In this document: positions 4,485-27,689 of the stretch, in pieces
How positions within the stretch are numbered: the first letter of the stretch is position 1
How the letters are laid out: each line of letters opens with the position of its first letter
NCBI RefSeq assembly: GCF_036030735.1
Contig: NZ_CP107928.1
Location: forward strand, 1 to 64,000
Length of the DNA stretch: 64,000 bases
From: Streptomyces sp. NBC_00425
GTDB lineage: Bacteria; Actinomycetota; Actinomycetes; Streptomycetales; Streptomycetaceae
Reading direction: 5' to 3'
The notes under the pieces: generated by a model
Database searches by the model: none
What the model was told of the DNA's origin: nothing
Seen by the model: only the letters and a program-made list of their open reading frames with translations
Program-made: the position numbers and the translations under genes

Positions 4485-6584
4485 ATGGCTTCTGAGGAAG
4501 AGCTGTTCGCGTCCGTCGACGCTCTGTTGAACGAGGAGCCGCACCTGCCGCCTCCCGCGGAGCGGGCCCGGCTGCGTGAGGCTGCCGGTATCACGCAGGC
4601 CCGCCTGGCCACCGCGTTGAAGACGACGACCCAGTCGGTGAAGAACTGGGAGAACGGCCGCAGCGAGCCGAAGTCGCCGCGCCTGGACGCCTACCAGCGG
4701 CTGCTGAACGGATGGGCAGCGAAGTACCCCGTCCCCGGCGCGGCCCCGACAGCCTCGGCCTCCGCGACGGCGCCCGCGGCGTCTGGTGAACCGGCCACAT
4801 CCGCGGTGGAGACGGTAGACGCCCCGCAGGCTCCCGCCGCGGCGCCGGCGCGGCCCGCTCCCCGGCCCGCCGCGGCATCGCGGCGCCCGGCCACCAAGAA
4901 GGCGGCGCAGCCCGCTGCCGATCCGCGCTTCCCGCACGGGCCGCTCGCCGTGCTGGACGGTGACGGCTCCGCATACGGCGTCGACGGGCTCGTGCTGGAC
5001 TGCCCCGCGACCACGGTCGTGGAGCTGGTGGAGTGGACGCTGCGCGAGTCCGGCCTCGGCGCGCCCAGGCTCAACCGCTACGGCAAGGACTCCGACCCGC
5101 TGATCGTGCTCACCGCCGCGGCCGCCGTCAGGCTCGGCCTCCCCGAGCGCCTGGAAGGCCACGAGCAGCGCCGCTCCCTGCGCCTGCCGGAGGATCACCC
5201 GGTGGTCAAGCAGGTGGTGAAGGCGAAATGGCGTCTGACCCAGCGCGGGTTCGGGCCGTGGGCAAGGATCTACCGCAAGGCCCAGGGGCGCGAGCGGCAG
5301 TGCGTGCAGCTGGCGGTCCTGTCATGGGATGCGCTCGACGAGCGGTCCTGGCCAGGCGTTGCGGAGATGGAGCCGGCCGACGTCGCCCGCGTCCTCGGCA
5401 TCTACGCAACCCGCGTCATCACCCCACGCGGCTCCACCGCCGTATCGGGCCTTGAGCTAATGACGGCGCTGCGGCCACCCACACGCCCCACGCAGGACCC
5501 CGCCACCGGCAACTGGGTGCCCGGCCACAATCCCGGCAGCCTCGGGATGGAGCCGATGGACCCGGCGCCGCCGGAGGCCACCCCCGAGCACCCCGTCGTC
5601 GTGGAATCCGGCTGGACGGGCGGATTCCTCAACGAGGAGGCCTACCAGTGGGTGCGCGACGTCAGCCTGCTCACCGATGAGGAGTGCACGCTGCCGTATG
5701 CGGTCGGCCTGGACCTCAACACCGCGTTCCTCGCCGCCGCGGCCCGCCTGGTCGTCGGCCTGTCCGCACCCGACCACTTCCAGACGCCGACGTTCAACCC
5801 GAAGATCCCCGGCTCCTGGCTGGTCGACCTGTCCCACGTCGAGGTGGATCCGCGCCTGCCCTCGCCGTTCACCCCGGACGGCGTGCAACCGGCGGGACCT
5901 GCCTGGTACCAGACGCACACCGTCGCCTACGCCCAGGAACTTGGCCACAACGTCGCCCCGATCGAGGCGTACCTGCGCCGGGAGACCGGCGCCTACCTGG
6001 ACCCGTGGCACGACCGGCTCAAAGCGGCCTACGTCGACACCCTCGCCGACCTCGGCGTCACCCGGGAGCTGGACGACCGGGCCTTCCTCGCAGCGATGGA
6101 GCGGCACAAGCAGGCCGACCCGGCCCTGGCGGCCGTCCTGGCCGCCATCAAGGCCACGGTGAAGGGCGGGATCGGCAAGCTCCGTGAACGCCCGCAGGGC
6201 AAGAAGTACAAGGAGGGCGAGAGGTGGCCGGCCCTGCAGCGGCCGACCTGGCGTCCCGACATCCGCGCCGCCGTCATCTCCAAGGCGCGGGTCAACATGC
6301 ACCGCAAACTCACCAACATGGTCAAGATGACGGGCCTGTACCCGCTCGCCGTGCTGTCCGACTGCGTCGTCTACCCGAGCCCGGGCGACAGCCCCCTGGA
6401 CTTCCTGCCGTACGCCGCGTCCGGCAAGCCCCAGCCCGGCGGCTTCCGCCTCGGACCGACACCGGGCCTGGCGAAGCTGGAAGGCGTCCAGTCGATGCTC
6501 TGGGCGGTCGACCTGATGGAGAAGGACTACAACCCGGCCCGCCACATCAAGGGCGGCGACGCCGTCCTCGACGAAGGAGAGTAG
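4485..6584 (+). CDS. tap: Telomere-associated protein Tap
   Basis: A 699-aa protein. An N-terminal XRE-like helix-turn-helix occupies about residues 27-75 (REAAGITQARLATALKTTTQ, then SVKNWENGRSEP), followed by an Ala/Pro-rich linker to about 140 and a long conserved body (VLDGDGSAYGVDGLVLDCPA; PEDHPVVKQVVKAKWRLTQR; GLDLNTAFLAAA). This matches the known Tap proteins, which bind the telomeric 3' overhang and recruit Tpg and the end-patching machinery. The ATG at 4485 has a purine-rich site (GAGGTGAAGG). tpg starts 6 bases after the stop, so the two form one operon. The length fits known Tap proteins (about 700-740 aa). Confidence 0.93.
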   Translation: MASEEELFASVDALLNEEPHLPPPAERARLREAAGITQARLATALKTTTQSVKNWENGRSEPKSPRLDAYQRLLNGWAAKYPVPGAAPTASASATAPAASGEPATSAVETVDAPQAPAAAPARPAPRPAAASRRPATKKAAQPAADPRFPHGPLAVLDGDGSAYGVDGLVLDCPATTVVELVEWTLRESGLGAPRLNRYGKDSDPLIVLTAAAAVRLGLPERLEGHEQRRSLRLPEDHPVVKQVVKAKWRLTQRGFGPWARIYRKAQGRERQCVQLAVLSWDALDERSWPGVAEMEPADVARVLGIYATRVITPRGSTAVSGLELMTALRPPTRPTQDPATGNWVPGHNPGSLGMEPMDPAPPEATPEHPVVVESGWTGGFLNEEAYQWVRDVSLLTDEECTLPYAVGLDLNTAFLAAAARLVVGLSAPDHFQTPTFNPKIPGSWLVDLSHVEVDPRLPSPFTPDGVQPAGPAWYQTHTVAYAQELGHNVAPIEAYLRRETGAYLDPWHDRLKAAYVDTLADLGVTRELDDRAFLAAMERHKQADPALAAVLAAIKATVKGGIGKLRERPQGKKYKEGERWPALQRPTWRPDIRAAVISKARVNMHRKLTNMVKMTGLYPLAVLSDCVVYPSPGDSPLDFLPYAASGKPQPGGFRLGPTPGLAKLEGVQSMLWAVDLMEKDYNPARHIKGGDAVLDEGE

Positions 6585-6590
6585 GGCGCT

Positions 6591-7148
6591 GTGGGAGAGA
6601 TCGACGACGCCATCGAACGCGCCGACCGGGAAGCCTTCACCCGCCAGCCGCCCAAGACACTCCAGGCACGCATCAACTTCCTGATGAAGCAGCTCAAGAC
6701 GACCAAAGCCGTTGCCCAGGAGCTCGGAGTCACCCAGCGGTCAGTGGAGCGCTACCGCACAGGCGAACGCAAGCACCCGCCCAAAGCGATCGCGGACCGG
6801 ATCGACGCCGCCGTACGAGCCCGCTGGCAGCCCCAGGTGCGCAAACGCCGGCAGCAACAAGCTGCCACCGCGACCGGGATCACCGTAGAAACCAGGGCCC
6901 GGTTCGGCTACACCGCCCCCATCGGCACCACCGACGACGGACGCTTCCGCCGCCTCACCGTCCACCTCCCCCCCACCTACGCACAACGCCTCTTCCACGC
7001 CCGCAATACAGGCGCCAGCGACCAGGAGATGCGCCAGATCATCGCCGAAGGCTTCAAAGACGTGTACTTCCAGGACGGCGGAAGCCGCGCCATGGGGCTC
7101 TCCGACGTCACTCTCAACGACATCGACTACCTCGACCTCGACTACTGA
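6591..7148 (+). CDS. tpg: Telomere terminal protein Tpg
   Basis: A 185-aa protein, the usual Tpg size. The N-terminal half carries an HTH-like region (AVAQELGVTQRSVERYRTGE, residues about 44-63) followed by a basic stretch (RARWQPQVRKRRQQQ). The C-terminal part has RRLTVHLPPTYAQRLFHARN and ends in an acidic tail (DVTLNDIDYLDLDY). Tpg is covalently bound to the 5' end of Streptomyces telomeres and primes replication of the last Okazaki gap. The start is GTG, with AAGGAG overlapping the tap stop codon, so translational coupling is likely. With tap it shows that this replicon maintains archetypal telomeres. Confidence 0.95.
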   Translation: MGEIDDAIERADREAFTRQPPKTLQARINFLMKQLKTTKAVAQELGVTQRSVERYRTGERKHPPKAIADRIDAAVRARWQPQVRKRRQQQAATATGITVETRARFGYTAPIGTTDDGRFRRLTVHLPPTYAQRLFHARNTGASDQEMRQIIAEGFKDVYFQDGGSRAMGLSDVTLNDIDYLDLDY

Positions 7149-7365
7149 CCGCGCCGGCCGGGGCTACGGCCCGAACGCCCCGCTGAGCCGAAGCACGGTA
7201 GTTGTCGCATAGGCAGGCTGGTTGACACCAGCTGGTGTGACTGAACGCTCTCGGCACCCGAACCCGGGCGGTTCGGCCCCTTCGTTGGAGGTGGTCGCCT
7301 TGGAGGACGGTGCGCCCACCGATCCTGGTTGTCGGTCGGCCTGAACTGGGCGTTAGCCTCGGCAG

Positions 7366-8343
7366 ATGATTACTCTGCGGCCTCTGAAGGTGATCACGCG
7401 CCATCGCAACGGGCGGATCCATGCCTTCGTGATGGACTCCGGCGTGTTCGGGGCACTTGAGCCCGCCGCGGTGTTCCAGCCGCGGCCCGGCGACGAGGTT
7501 GTGGAGTCGGCGGTCTGGCCCGATCTGGAGCGAGTCGTGTACACGACGCTGAACGGCGTCGTCTGCCTCACGCGCGCTGGTGGCCTGGTGTGGACATCGA
7601 ACTTCGAGCCCTACTCCGACCAGCGCCATGGTCACCGGCCTGGCTGTGCGCTGTCCCTGGACGGCCGGACCGTATGGGTCTACCGGCCAGACGCGATGGC
7701 GGGACGCGGGAGCGGAGACCAGTGGGTCGTACACGACGCCGATAGCGGGGCGGTCCTTGTCCGCCGGGAACTGGAGACAGTCGGGCACGGCGCCGGCCAC
7801 TACGTGCACCCGGTGGACGGCAGCATCTACCTCGACATCGGTGAGGGTCAGGACGGCTCAGTCATTCTCAGGGCCACGGCTCGGGCCGACGGCGAGGCGG
7901 AGTTCGTGACGTACCCGTGGTCGGACCGCTGTCTGATCGACCTGGCGCCGGGCGGGCAGCAGTTCATGACCGTCGACCACGGGCAGGCAGATGTCGCCTT
8001 CCACCGCCACTCCAGCGGGGACGTGCTCTTCACTTTGCCCGTCGAAGCCTTCGGATACGACCCGGAGGAGACCTTCGTGGAATGGAGCGGCGGCTACCTG
8101 ACCCCAGACCTGGCCGTCGTCACATTGGGCGGTGAGGGCCAGGACGAGGAGGAGTGGTTCCGCTACCACCTGATCGACGTGCGCACGGGCACGCTCAGCG
8201 GCGAGATCGCCGTCGAGGTGACCAACCCGTACGAACTGGTGCCCCTAGGAGACGGCTCCTGGCTCACCAACGGCTCTGACGGCACCCCCGTCCGCTGGTC
8301 GCACTCTCCGCTGACCTCCGCACCGCCACATCCGGAAGGCTGA
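7366..8343 (+). CDS. Hypothetical protein, beta-propeller-like
   Basis: A 325-aa soluble protein with no signal peptide or membrane segment. It has repeated short blade-like units in which a Trp/Tyr-Val strand is followed by an acidic turn (VWVYRPDAMAG, WVVHDADSGAVLVRREL, EEEWFRYHLIDVRTGTLSG), typical of quinoprotein or WD-like propellers. The acidic, Gly-rich composition supports this. The 217 bases after tpg separate it from the telomere operon. The gene downstream is convergent. No enzymatic motif is seen, and the fold assignment is inference from pattern. Confidence 0.6.
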   Translation: MITLRPLKVITRHRNGRIHAFVMDSGVFGALEPAAVFQPRPGDEVVESAVWPDLERVVYTTLNGVVCLTRAGGLVWTSNFEPYSDQRHGHRPGCALSLDGRTVWVYRPDAMAGRGSGDQWVVHDADSGAVLVRRELETVGHGAGHYVHPVDGSIYLDIGEGQDGSVILRATARADGEAEFVTYPWSDRCLIDLAPGGQQFMTVDHGQADVAFHRHSSGDVLFTLPVEAFGYDPEETFVEWSGGYLTPDLAVVTLGGEGQDEEEWFRYHLIDVRTGTLSGEIAVEVTNPYELVPLGDGSWLTNGSDGTPVRWSHSPLTSAPPHPEG

Positions 8344-25507: not shown

Positions 25508-26446
25508 ATGCAGCGGATGCAGCGGATGCAGCGGGCCGCCGGCGTGATCGTCGGCTCAGCGGTGGGTGACGCCCTGGGCGGCCCCTTCGAGTTCGGCCCC
25601 CGGGGAGCCTTCTCCGCGCGGTTCCCCTCCCCCGGCTCGGGTGGCGAGATGTGCGGAGGCGGCGGCTGGGATCCCGGCGAGGCGACCGACGACACGCAGA
25701 TGGCCGTCCTGGTCGCGGAGTCCCTGCTCGAGCGGGGCGGTCTGGATCTGCCGGACGTCTTCGCCCGCTTCCAGCGGTGGGCGGCATCAGAGCCCAAGGA
25801 CATCGGCCTGCAGACCGAAGACGTCCTGACCAACGGCATGCCCTGGGATCTCGCCGCCGCGATCCATTCCCAGGTCAACCGGAGAGCAGCCGGAAACGGC
25901 TCCCTGATGCGGGCGTCGACCTCCGCGGTCCACTTCGCAGCCGCCGGCCGGGAAGCCACCATGGACGCGGCCCGGCGCATCGCCGCCCTCACCCACGGCG
26001 ACCGCGCGGCCTGGGAAGGCACCGCGATCTTCCACGAGCTCATTCGCGTCGCGTTCGAGGGCAGCGACCCCCTCGCGGCGCTTCCGGACATCCTGGCTCA
26101 CGTCCACCCCGACCACCGTGATCGCTACGCCACCGTCCTCGCGGCCGACTGGCACCCCGACCAGGCGACCGAGTTCAACGGCGCCGTCTGGCCCTGCCTG
26201 GGCTCCGCCGTCTGGGCCCTGCGGACCACCTCCGGCTTCGAGGACGCGATGCGCGCGGCGATCGACCTCGGCGGTGACACGGACACCGTCGCCGCGGTGA
26301 CCGGAGGCCTCGCGGGGGCGTACTACGGGCTGGACGCCGTCCCCGACCGCTGGACCCGGCCGCTGCACGTTCCCCTCCCCGGATTCGACGGACGGGTGCT
26401 GCACCTGGAAGATCTGCTCCATCTTGCGCACCGGCTCGGAGGCTGA
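25508..26446 (+). CDS. ADP-ribosylglycohydrolase family protein (DraG-like)
   Basis: A 312-aa protein. It has AAGVIVGSAVGDALGGPFEF at the start, the metal ligands ATDDTQMAVLVAESLLERGG (first DDT motif, about residue 60) and AIDLGGDTDTVAAVTGGLAG (second, about 257) that bind two Mg/Mn ions, and GNGSLMRASTSAVHF in between. These are the signatures of DraG/ARH hydrolases that remove ADP-ribose from proteins or act on ADP-ribosyl compounds. The N-terminus has three in-frame ATGs in a 9-bp repeat (MQRMQRMQR), so the exact start is open. It stands alone between the desaturase operon and the tRNA-like region. Confidence 0.88.
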   Translation: MQRMQRMQRAAGVIVGSAVGDALGGPFEFGPRGAFSARFPSPGSGGEMCGGGGWDPGEATDDTQMAVLVAESLLERGGLDLPDVFARFQRWAASEPKDIGLQTEDVLTNGMPWDLAAAIHSQVNRRAAGNGSLMRASTSAVHFAAAGREATMDAARRIAALTHGDRAAWEGTAIFHELIRVAFEGSDPLAALPDILAHVHPDHRDRYATVLAADWHPDQATEFNGAVWPCLGSAVWALRTTSGFEDAMRAAIDLGGDTDTVAAVTGGLAGAYYGLDAVPDRWTRPLHVPLPGFDGRVLHLEDLLHLAHRLGG

Positions 26447-26569: not shown

Positions 26570-26602
26570 GGAGCCCGGAAGCATGTCCAGCTCCCGGGCT
26601 CC
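26570..26602. terminator. Hairpin downstream of the ADP-ribosylglycohydrolase gene
   Basis: A 9-bp stem GGAGCCCGG (26570-26578) and CCGGGCTCC (26594-26602) around a 15-base loop, about 120 bases after the stop. It lies between that gene and the minus-strand tRNA-like region, so it could end transcription from either side. Confidence 0.45.
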
Positions 26603-26643
26603 AGCTTGCCACCCATTTGCGCACACCGACGGCGTTTAAGAAC

Positions 26644-26744
26644 CGCGGGTCATGTTGAGATCGACGTGTTCTGCCTTTGAACTACAGCGCCACGAGAGAG
26701 GCGCCGAGGGGACTTGAACCCCCATCCGTCGATGTTCGCCCACG
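26644..26744 (-). tRNA. Putative circularly permuted tRNA gene, anticodon CUC (Glu-like)
   Basis: On the minus strand the 3' half comes first: anticodon-stem strand CGACG (26731-26727), T-arm GGGGG-TTCAAGT-CCCCT, 3' acceptor strand CGGCGCC, discriminator T at 26699. After 7 bases comes the 5' half: acceptor GGCGCTG (26691-26685), TA, D-arm GTTC-AAAGGCA-GAAC, A26, anticodon-stem strand CGTCG, loop ATCTCAA with U33 and anticodon CUC. Acceptor pairs are 7/7 (one G-U), D-stem 4/4, anticodon stem 5/5. No CCA is encoded. The flanks CCCGCG (26649-26644) and CGTGGG (26744-26739) can pair as an outer helix. Read in normal order with its neighbour, the stems do not pair. All pairing was done by eye. 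Confidence 0.6.
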
Positions 26745-26789
26745 CTCGGTCGATCCGGTGTTCGGCGGCGAATACTGAGACTGGAGCGA

Positions 26790-26893
26790 GAATCTGAGTT
26801 TCACGGGGCCGCCTCTGCCAGGCTTGGGCCACCCCCGCACGTGGTGCGGGGAGAGGGATTCGAACCCCCAACTGACACCCCTTCATCAGCTTC
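26790..26893 (-). tRNA. Putative circularly permuted tRNA gene, anticodon GAA (Phe-like)
   Basis: Minus strand, 3' half first: anticodon-stem strand GGGGT (26881-26877), 7-base variable region, T-arm GGGGG-TTCGAAT-CCCTC, 3' acceptor TCCCCGC, discriminator A and encoded CCA (26844-26842). Only 3 bases later the 5' half begins: acceptor GCGGGGG (26838-26832), TG, D-arm GCCCAAGCCTGGCAGAGGC, then anticodon-stem strand GCCCC and loop GTGAAAC with U33 and anticodon GAA. Acceptor 7/7 and anticodon stem 5/5 pair (one G-U each). Beyond the loop, TCAG-A-TTC (26797-26790) can pair with GAA-G-CTGA (26893-26886). A7-base variable region is odd. It could be a decayed tRNA array, but the matched stems argue for permutation. 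Confidence 0.6.
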
Positions 26894-26924
26894 AACATCA
26901 GTTTCAGCTTGCGCTCATCGCGCA

Positions 26925-26945
26925 CCCTCCGCTCGCGACGGAGGG
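26925..26945. terminator. Hairpin between the conserved gene and the tRNA-like region
   Basis: A 7-bp stem CCCTCCG (26925-26931) and CGGAGGG (26939-26945) with a 7-base loop, starting 12 bases after the stop of the minus-strand gene at 26958. It could terminate that gene or mark a processing point of a joint transcript with the tRNA-like genes. Confidence 0.5.
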
Positions 26946-26957
26946 CGTGTGTGGAGG

Positions 26958-27689
26958 CTACCGGAACAGGTAGCCGAATACCGCGTCGCCGACCCGCTGG
27001 TCGGTGACCTCGGTGTTGTTCGCCTCCTCGCGGGCGAACTTGACGGACTGCTGGAGCTTCTCAACACGGTCGAGGAGCTCGTTGACCCGCCGGGCCGGCA
27101 GCGCGCCGGAGAACTTCACCGTGGTCCAGTAACCGACCGGGACGTCCTCGTAGTACACCTCGACCTGCGCCGGGTGCTTCTCCGTGGCCTCGGCCTTCAC
27201 GTGGTTGCGCGGAACCTTCTTCGTGCGGATGGTCCGCACCGGGTCCGTCTTCCACGAGTCCGTCGAGGGGTCCAGGTTCCAGGACTCGGAGGCGTCGAGC
27301 ACTGGCAGCTTGCGCACGAAGGTGTGCAGGTCGGTGAGTTGCTTCTCCAGGAACAACAGGTAGGGGACGGGCACCTGGGGCAACAGCACCGTACCGTCGA
27401 CCACCACGTCCGCGGCCGCGGACCGGTTCGCCCAGTCCTTCGTCGCGGTCACGTCGAAGAGCCGCGTCAGCGTCCCGGCGGTCGCCCGCAGAGCGTCCTC
27501 GGCCTTGATCTGCACCCGCGTGGACTCGGGCGGCAGCTGCTCGCCCTCCTCGTCCTTGGGCTGGTAGGTCCGGGAGATGCCGGCCAGCAGGGCGGGCTTC
27601 TGCACGTCCTGGTGAGCCTGGGTGAGCTCCTGAAGGGCCTTGGACTTGACGCCCTTTTCGACTGCGATGATCTGGTTCAGCTTCGGCAC
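26958..27689 (-). CDS. Conserved uncharacterised actinobacterial protein, 243 aa
   Basis: It begins MPKLNQIIAVEKGVKSKALQ and is rich in Lys, Glu and Thr, with few hydrophobic runs and no membrane segment. Conserved-looking blocks are LLAGISRTYQPKDEEGEQLP, GTLTRLFDVTATKDWANRSA, VPYLLFLEKQLTDLHTFVRK and PVGYWTTVKFSGALPARRVN, ending in a helical region. I recall close relatives across actinobacteria but no known function. It reads toward the two permuted-tRNA-like sequences, which begin 65 bases after its stop. Its GC and codon use look slightly less extreme than in neighbouring genes. A nucleic-acid role is possible but unsupported by any motif. Confidence 0.8.
   Translation of the reverse strand: MPKLNQIIAVEKGVKSKALQELTQAHQDVQKPALLAGISRTYQPKDEEGEQLPPESTRVQIKAEDALRATAGTLTRLFDVTATKDWANRSAAADVVVDGTVLLPQVPVPYLLFLEKQLTDLHTFVRKLPVLDASESWNLDPSTDSWKTDPVRTIRTKKVPRNHVKAEATEKHPAQVEVYYEDVPVGYWTTVKFSGALPARRVNELLDRVEKLQQSVKFAREEANNTEVTDQRVGDAVFGYLFR

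Follow-up and report, generated by a model that had tools for sequence, protein, structure and literature searches.

Two tRNA-shaped sequences in the genome of Streptomyces sp. NBC_00425 are predicted to be modules of one conserved structured RNA of about 376 nt that lies directly 3' of a DUF7873 gene. We consider it likely that this RNA works like a bacterial Y RNA, as a scaffold held by the DUF7873 protein whose two arms, shaped like permuted tRNAs, bind tRNA-recognising proteins. The stretch analysed, 64 kb of contig NZ_CP107928.1 (the window), carries all elements of the RNA on its minus strand. The DUF7873 gene (26958-27689, minus strand; 243 aa; Pfam PF25283, 402.7 bits) is directly 5' of the RNA and encodes its proposed partner.

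The first element of the RNA, as read from the sequence, is a 5' hairpin, CCCTCCG/CGGAGGG (26925-26945), 12 nt past the DUF7873 stop codon; comparable 5' hairpins with TTGAGC-like loops were seen by eye in phage loci. The outer stem of module 1 (26775-26907) pairs CTGAAACTG (26907-26899) with CAGTCTCAG (26783-26775), and its inner helix pairs CTGA (26889-26886) with TCAG (26797-26794). The tRNA-like module 1 itself (26798-26881) consists of a T-arm, an acceptor, a D-arm and an anticodon-like stem and loop. Its T-stem is GGGGG/CCCTC with the T-loop TTCGAAT, U8 and the D-loop GG are present, and the 3' acceptor strand TCCCCGC (26852-26846), followed by ACCA (26845-26842), pairs 7/7 with the 5' strand GCGGGGG (26838-26832). 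The anticodon-like stem, CCCC/GGGG plus one G-U pair, closes the loop GUGAAAC with the triplet GAA at 26802-26800. A conserved linker, TTCTCGCTCCAG (26781-26792), joins the two modules and is a candidate protein-binding element; a TTCTCGCTC-like motif was found in all 80 named loci (the best 80 of 491 relatives) versus 6 of 237 control stretches.

The outer stem of module 2 (26608-26769) pairs GCCGCC (26769-26764) with GGTGGC (26613-26608), CACCGG (26760-26755) with TCGGTG (26629-26624), and GAGC (26747-26744) with GTTC (26643-26640). Two conserved internal loops, GATCGACCG and CTTAAACG, lie within the same interval. The tRNA-like module 2 (26655-26731) has the same four parts as module 1 and is without CCA. 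Its acceptor pairs CGGCGCC (26706-26700) with GGCGCTG (26691-26685), again 7/7, its T-loop is TTCAAGT, and its anticodon-like stem CGACG/CGTCG closes the loop AUCUCAA with the triplet CUC at 26659-26657. The predicted 3' end is a hairpin, GGAGCCCGGGAGC-TGGACAT-GCTTCCGGGCTCC (26570-26602), for which a generic terminator scan gave no match. Hairpins with a GGAYA loop occur in 42 of the 80 named loci (best 80 of 491 relatives) versus 4 of 237 controls, and viral loci show the GGATA form in 11 of 29 cases versus 13 of 620 windows. The conserved hairpin looks like more than a plain terminator. Its apical loop, of the GGAUA type, is kept from Streptomyces to phages (for example L055, L061 and L062). 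A gene of the ADP-ribosylglycohydrolase family (25508-26446, plus strand) converges on the RNA. An identical second copy of the locus lies close to the opposite end of the 9.8-Mb chromosome (26600-26960 and 9778353-9778713), as expected of a terminal repeat.

A first-pass annotation of this DNA had described two minus-strand tRNA 3' halves, each followed by a complementary 5' half, with canonical T-loops, U8, D-loop GG and the triplets GAA and CUC, and all of this can be read in the window. ARAGORN called no tRNA gene there in linear order, and Rfam gave no match at gathering level. We composed a strict descriptor after the modules had been seen (4 or more of 5 T-stem pairs, T-loop TTCRANY, an acceptor that pairs 7/7 with the 5' half after it, U8, D-stem 3/3 and GG). 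On both strands of the 64 kb it matched exactly twice, at modules 1 and 2, and it did not match in 30 mononucleotide shuffles. Every match listed over loci L001-L074 falls no more than about 800 nt downstream of a DUF7873 gene or else upstream of a TROVE (Ro60) gene.

The first-pass annotation had proposed a look for compensatory base changes in homologous loci. We aligned 29 loci, omitting a duplicate (L001) and a locus in which part of module 1 is deleted (L020). The stems covary. In a structure of 73 pairs, 93.8% of the cells are paired and 38 pairs show double changes; the 245 double-change cells compare with 79.2 in shuffles, and none of 500 shuffles reached 245. Controls in which the partner strand was slid were 41.9-47.4% paired. 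RNAalifold alone returned 60 pairs, 34 of them with double changes, and a separate alignment of 33 of 58 modules was 93.7% paired. The anticodon stem of module 2 is only 61.4% paired as aligned. Extra helices beyond the anticodon loop had also been suggested, and these are real as well: long outer stems are kept in all 29 loci, with clear compensation for module 2 (helices 7-11, 93-100% of cells paired, both-side changes in 11 of 20 pairs) but partial compensation for module 1, whose outer and inner helices are 81.6% and 93.1% paired over the 29 sequences and covary less than the other helices. The structural case rests on this covariation, since minimum free energy folding of two single sequences improved little on shuffles (z -1.22 and -1.61). 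Our model R1, in whose construction these sequences were used along with others, scored modules 1 and 2 at 78.5 and 79.9 bits. The loop that closes the acceptor is short, except in some phages and in genome G010, where it has at least 21 nt.

The covariation indicates that the permuted tRNA fold is under selection. It contradicts the alternative, offered with the first-pass annotation, that the sequences are remnants of a decayed tRNA array; some phage homologues do sit among tRNA genes, but with compensatory changes in 38 pairs and conservation that spans two actinobacterial families and many phages, we find decay hardly credible.

The RNA was found to travel with DUF7873. In a panel of 100 genomes (our genome and 99 relatives), 44 matched a 361-nt RNA query by blastn and 44 carried DUF7873; both were present in 42 and neither in 54. 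The two genomes with DUF7873 only by blastn (G010 and G069) in fact hold diverged versions of the RNA, and in two genomes without DUF7873 (G055 and G076) the query gave only a short T-arm-like match. At all 31 loci from RNA-query matches in our genome and its relatives, the 3' end of a DUF7873 gene is just upstream. The named-genome loci, the best 80 of 491 relatives, come from Streptomyces, Kitasatospora, Actinacidiphila and one unplaced actinobacterium. Behind DUF7873 the strict descriptor found at least one module in all of these 80 (two in 61, one in 19), and so did a relaxed descriptor (two in 69, one in 11). In control sequence the relaxed form matched 1 of 237 stretches from the named genomes and, in the viral loci with their tRNA arrays counted in, 20 of 466 other windows. 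On comparison of its surroundings, the cassette is free-standing in bacteria: among 2556 pairs of the 72 longest named loci (from the best 80 of 491), DUF7873 is common to 2556 and the RNA to 2187, and the left and right flanks to 77 and 157.

The same cassette is carried by phages. DUF7873 was found in 73 of 50,697 phage records and at 18 IMG/VR loci, and the viral set examined holds 31 loci (the 18 from IMG/VR and 13 named), among which L046/L047 and L048/L060 are near-duplicates. At least one module was found by the strict descriptor in 29 of the 31 (two in 12, one in 17, none in 2) and by the relaxed descriptor in 30 (two in 15, one in 14, none in 1, and three in 1, one of these probably false). 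In the viral locus without a relaxed match, from a Microcoleus phage, model R1 matches about 1.8 kb beyond the DUF7873 gene. The fetched viral stretches hold at least 8 tRNA genes in 9 of the 31, 1-6 in 10 and none in 12; since these 12 are without an ordinary tRNA gene, any argument from tRNA arrays is a partial one. In Rhodococcus phage NiceHouse (L064, 4374-5246) the annotation has a band-7-like membrane protein immediately after the cassette. Genes of this type are linked to RNA repair operons.

The position of the RNA directly 3' of the gene, with its first hairpin so close to the stop codon in the window, would also fit a role in cis, as a 3' UTR structure controlling or stabilising the DUF7873 mRNA, for example through RNase P cleavage or feedback of DUF7873 on its own message. 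We regard this as quite improbable, for two separate tRNA arms and conserved linkers are more than a stability element requires, and YrlA, as published, acts in trans (PMC8394870).

Circularly permuted tRNA genes occur in Cyanidioschyzon and Thermofilum. The modules resemble these in having the 3' half before the 5' half and complete pairing of the acceptor and anticodon stems. If they were two functional genes of this kind, RNase P and a cut-and-ligate step at the anticodon loop would have to mature them. To examine this reading we surveyed the 69 two-module named loci (from the best 80 of 491 relatives), placing the anticodon stem by best pairing with a script. Once joined in tRNA order, 132 of the 138 modules in these loci were called tRNA by ARAGORN, the 4-bp helix beyond the module 1 anticodon loop is conserved, and ACCA directly follows the 3' acceptor strand of module 1 in 35 of the 69 (best 80 of 491); by eye, phages L061-L064 have it as well. 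Because module 1 encodes ACCA, an opening of arm 1 by RNase P is conceivable. The ACCA goes beyond what a mere mimic would need and counts against our preferred reading, a Y-RNA-like scaffold. After the 3' acceptor strand of module 2, CCA was found in none of the 69 loci (best 80 of 491), though it could be added after processing. At that site module 2 shows NCT in 68 of the 69 (best 80 of 491), unlike the ACCA of module 1.

The triplets tell against decoding. Among these 69 loci (best 80 of 491) there are 9 different triplets in module 1 (CAA 29, GAA 15, AAT 7, TGA 5, TCA 5 and others) and 15 in module 2 (CTC 17, TGA 8, ATC 7, TTC 6, ATA 6 and others, including TTA and CTA), selenocysteine and stop triplets among them, and U33 is kept in 50 of the 69 for module 1 and in 29 of the 69 for module 2. 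In two genomes the tRNA part of module 1 has been lost and the scaffold kept: the T and acceptor arms are deleted in L020 (G027), where the surrounding strands remain, and in G010 (L126) a short stretch stands in for the tRNA part, with the outer strands and the linker still present. Conserved linkers, outer stems and a partner gene would also be superfluous for a tRNA. Compared with permuted tRNA genes, then, the anticodon here is not conserved, some acceptor loops are extended, module 1 can be lost, and the modules are part of a larger conserved RNA that has a partner gene. Neither anticodon identity nor U33 is stable among orthologues. We judge it very improbable that these are permuted tRNA genes. 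The first-pass annotation had the fold right, as the joined modules and the covariation indicate, but the scatter of triplets leaves the identity as tRNA genes unsupported.

In tmRNA, too, a tRNA-like domain is embedded in a longer RNA, and permuted two-piece forms exist. The present RNA differs in having two such domains, and the tmRNA model matches only a 17-nt T-arm. No tag reading frame of the tmRNA type was found; in relatives, a 1-nt indel interrupts the open frame that the window has.

A closer likeness is to the bacterial Y RNAs, which are known as partners of Ro60. The Rfam model of YrlA (RF02553) aligns end to end, over model positions 1-114, with both modules, scoring 24.3 bits (E 0.0051) for module 2 and 23.3 bits (E 0.010) for module 1 in a 401-base search. 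Neither reaches the Rfam gathering cut-off of 69 bits, and the Ro60-linked RNA of the same genome, at 42.5 bits, is likewise under it. In relatives the score rises to 35.4 bits, and 12 of 13 DUF7873-linked loci scanned have a match at E ≤1; L028 is without a YrlA match even at E 1. The score is double-edged, as one would expect a real permuted tRNA to score against YrlA too. According to PMC13355120, the structure of YrlA (6CU1) is a circular permutation with respect to tRNA, and the review cited above presents YrlA as a stem joined to a tRNA-like D/T/acceptor domain, tethering Rsr to PNPase (PMC8394870). The full-length alignment, the permutation of 6CU1 and the description in the review together identify the modules as YrlA-type; the first-pass annotation saw such a module without recognising it.

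YrlA (PDB 6CU1; partner Rsr/Ro60, effector PNPase) and our modules share the order of outer stem, anticodon-like stem, T-arm, closed acceptor, D-arm and return to the outer stem, with the outer stem closing a tRNA in circularly permuted order, and the Ro60-linked RNA of the same genome is likewise two-module. They differ in that the DUF7873-linked RNA is about 376 nt long with linkers of its own, is far under the Rfam cut-off, has DUF7873 as its neighbour instead of rsr, and is present where a TROVE gene was not found.

This likeness raises the alternative that the RNA is a Y RNA working in trans with host Ro60 (Rsr) and PNPase, with DUF7873 as a mere neighbour or accessory. The topology is that of YrlA, and two TROVE proteins are encoded in the genome; their genes are 1.4 and 2.4 Mb away from the distal copy of the RNA and at a greater distance from the window copy. 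No rsr/Ro60 (TROVE) gene lies beside the RNA in the window, where the neighbour is DUF7873. One of the two TROVE proteins, supported by Pfam and by TROVE chains in the PDB, has two modules directly upstream of its gene. In this Ro60 locus (L036) the two YrlA-type modules are at 2485-2573 and 2724-2812, about 240 nt apart; in L090 and L095 TROVE genes are likewise preceded by two modules. In the full panel of 100 genomes DUF7873 and TROVE show an association (32/12/20/36, p 0.0003), but within the genus they are independent (22/10/17/12, p 0.44). A TROVE gene was not found in 12 of the 44 DUF7873 genomes, nor in 24 of the 27 viral records searched (12 of the 13 named ones included), although some of these records are fragments and phages could use the Ro60 of the host. 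The two kinds of RNA also differ in a motif, ACTTC before the module, which we defined in the present analysis as a candidate stem motif and which is not an established Ro60 site: it is present in 17 of 19 Ro60-linked modules versus 3 of 191 DUF7873-linked ones (108 loci). Of the 23 TROVE loci scanned, 12 supplied these 19 modules and 11 gave none. Viral contig G450 (L054) holds both systems with separate RNAs, DUF7873 with two modules (5816-6054) and, about 1 kb further, three modules (7123-7577) just before a TROVE gene. An RNA serving host Ro60 is thus, in our estimation, unlikely. Judged from sequence data, a Ro60-independent RNP, Y-RNA-like and mimicking tRNA, is the likely identity of the DUF7873-linked RNA.

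The DUF7873 protein offers few clues of its own. By hmmscan, the window protein and four phage proteins matched PF25283 only, and no TROVE domain was found in these five. A confident structure model (pLDDT 92, pTM 0.75) predicts long helices and a long beta hairpin, on which a conserved lysine/arginine-rich stretch would sit. Comparison of the model with solved and viral structures gave no significant match, and no recognisable RNA-binding fold was found in it. We infer RNA binding by DUF7873 from its genetic linkage to the RNA only. The family is large: 7,536 database proteins matched at E ≤0.001 among 7,998 candidates scored.

For a DUF7873-held, Y-RNA-like scaffold we propose the following mechanism. 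The RNA would be transcribed as one piece, with or from the DUF7873 mRNA. DUF7873 would hold it by the long stems, binding the conserved linker and the internal loops, with UUCUCGCUCC or GAUCGACCG/CUUAAACG as the proposed contact sites. The two closed, circularly permuted arms would mimic tRNA and bind proteins that recognise it, and so may provide a docking site for a tRNA-binding enzyme or serve as a decoy that draws off tRNA-cutting enzymes. The docking and decoy ideas have the tRNA arrays of phages as their sole and circumstantial argument; the siting of the cassette inside some of these arrays could, speculatively, reflect protection from, or capture of, tRNA-acting enzymes. A more far-reaching version, which we offer as tentative and rather doubtful, is that DUF7873 and the twin-armed RNA are a new class of RNP, the Ro60-free counterpart of the Y RNA particle. 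Phages would carry it with their tRNA genes and Streptomyces would have captured the free-standing cassette, the arms would bait tRNA-cutting or tRNA-processing enzymes, and RNase P would open arm 1 at its ACCA end, leaving a nicked RNA whose 3' end resembles that of a tRNA.

The module is thus known, and what is new is its architecture, its partner and its distribution, although Ro60-free YrlA-like RNAs may have been described earlier. If the proposal is true, a second protein family besides Ro60 has taken up permuted tRNA mimicry, and DUF7873 would gain its first testable function. In three annotated phages it would also account for the gap of about 400-700 bp, free of annotation, that follows DUF7873.
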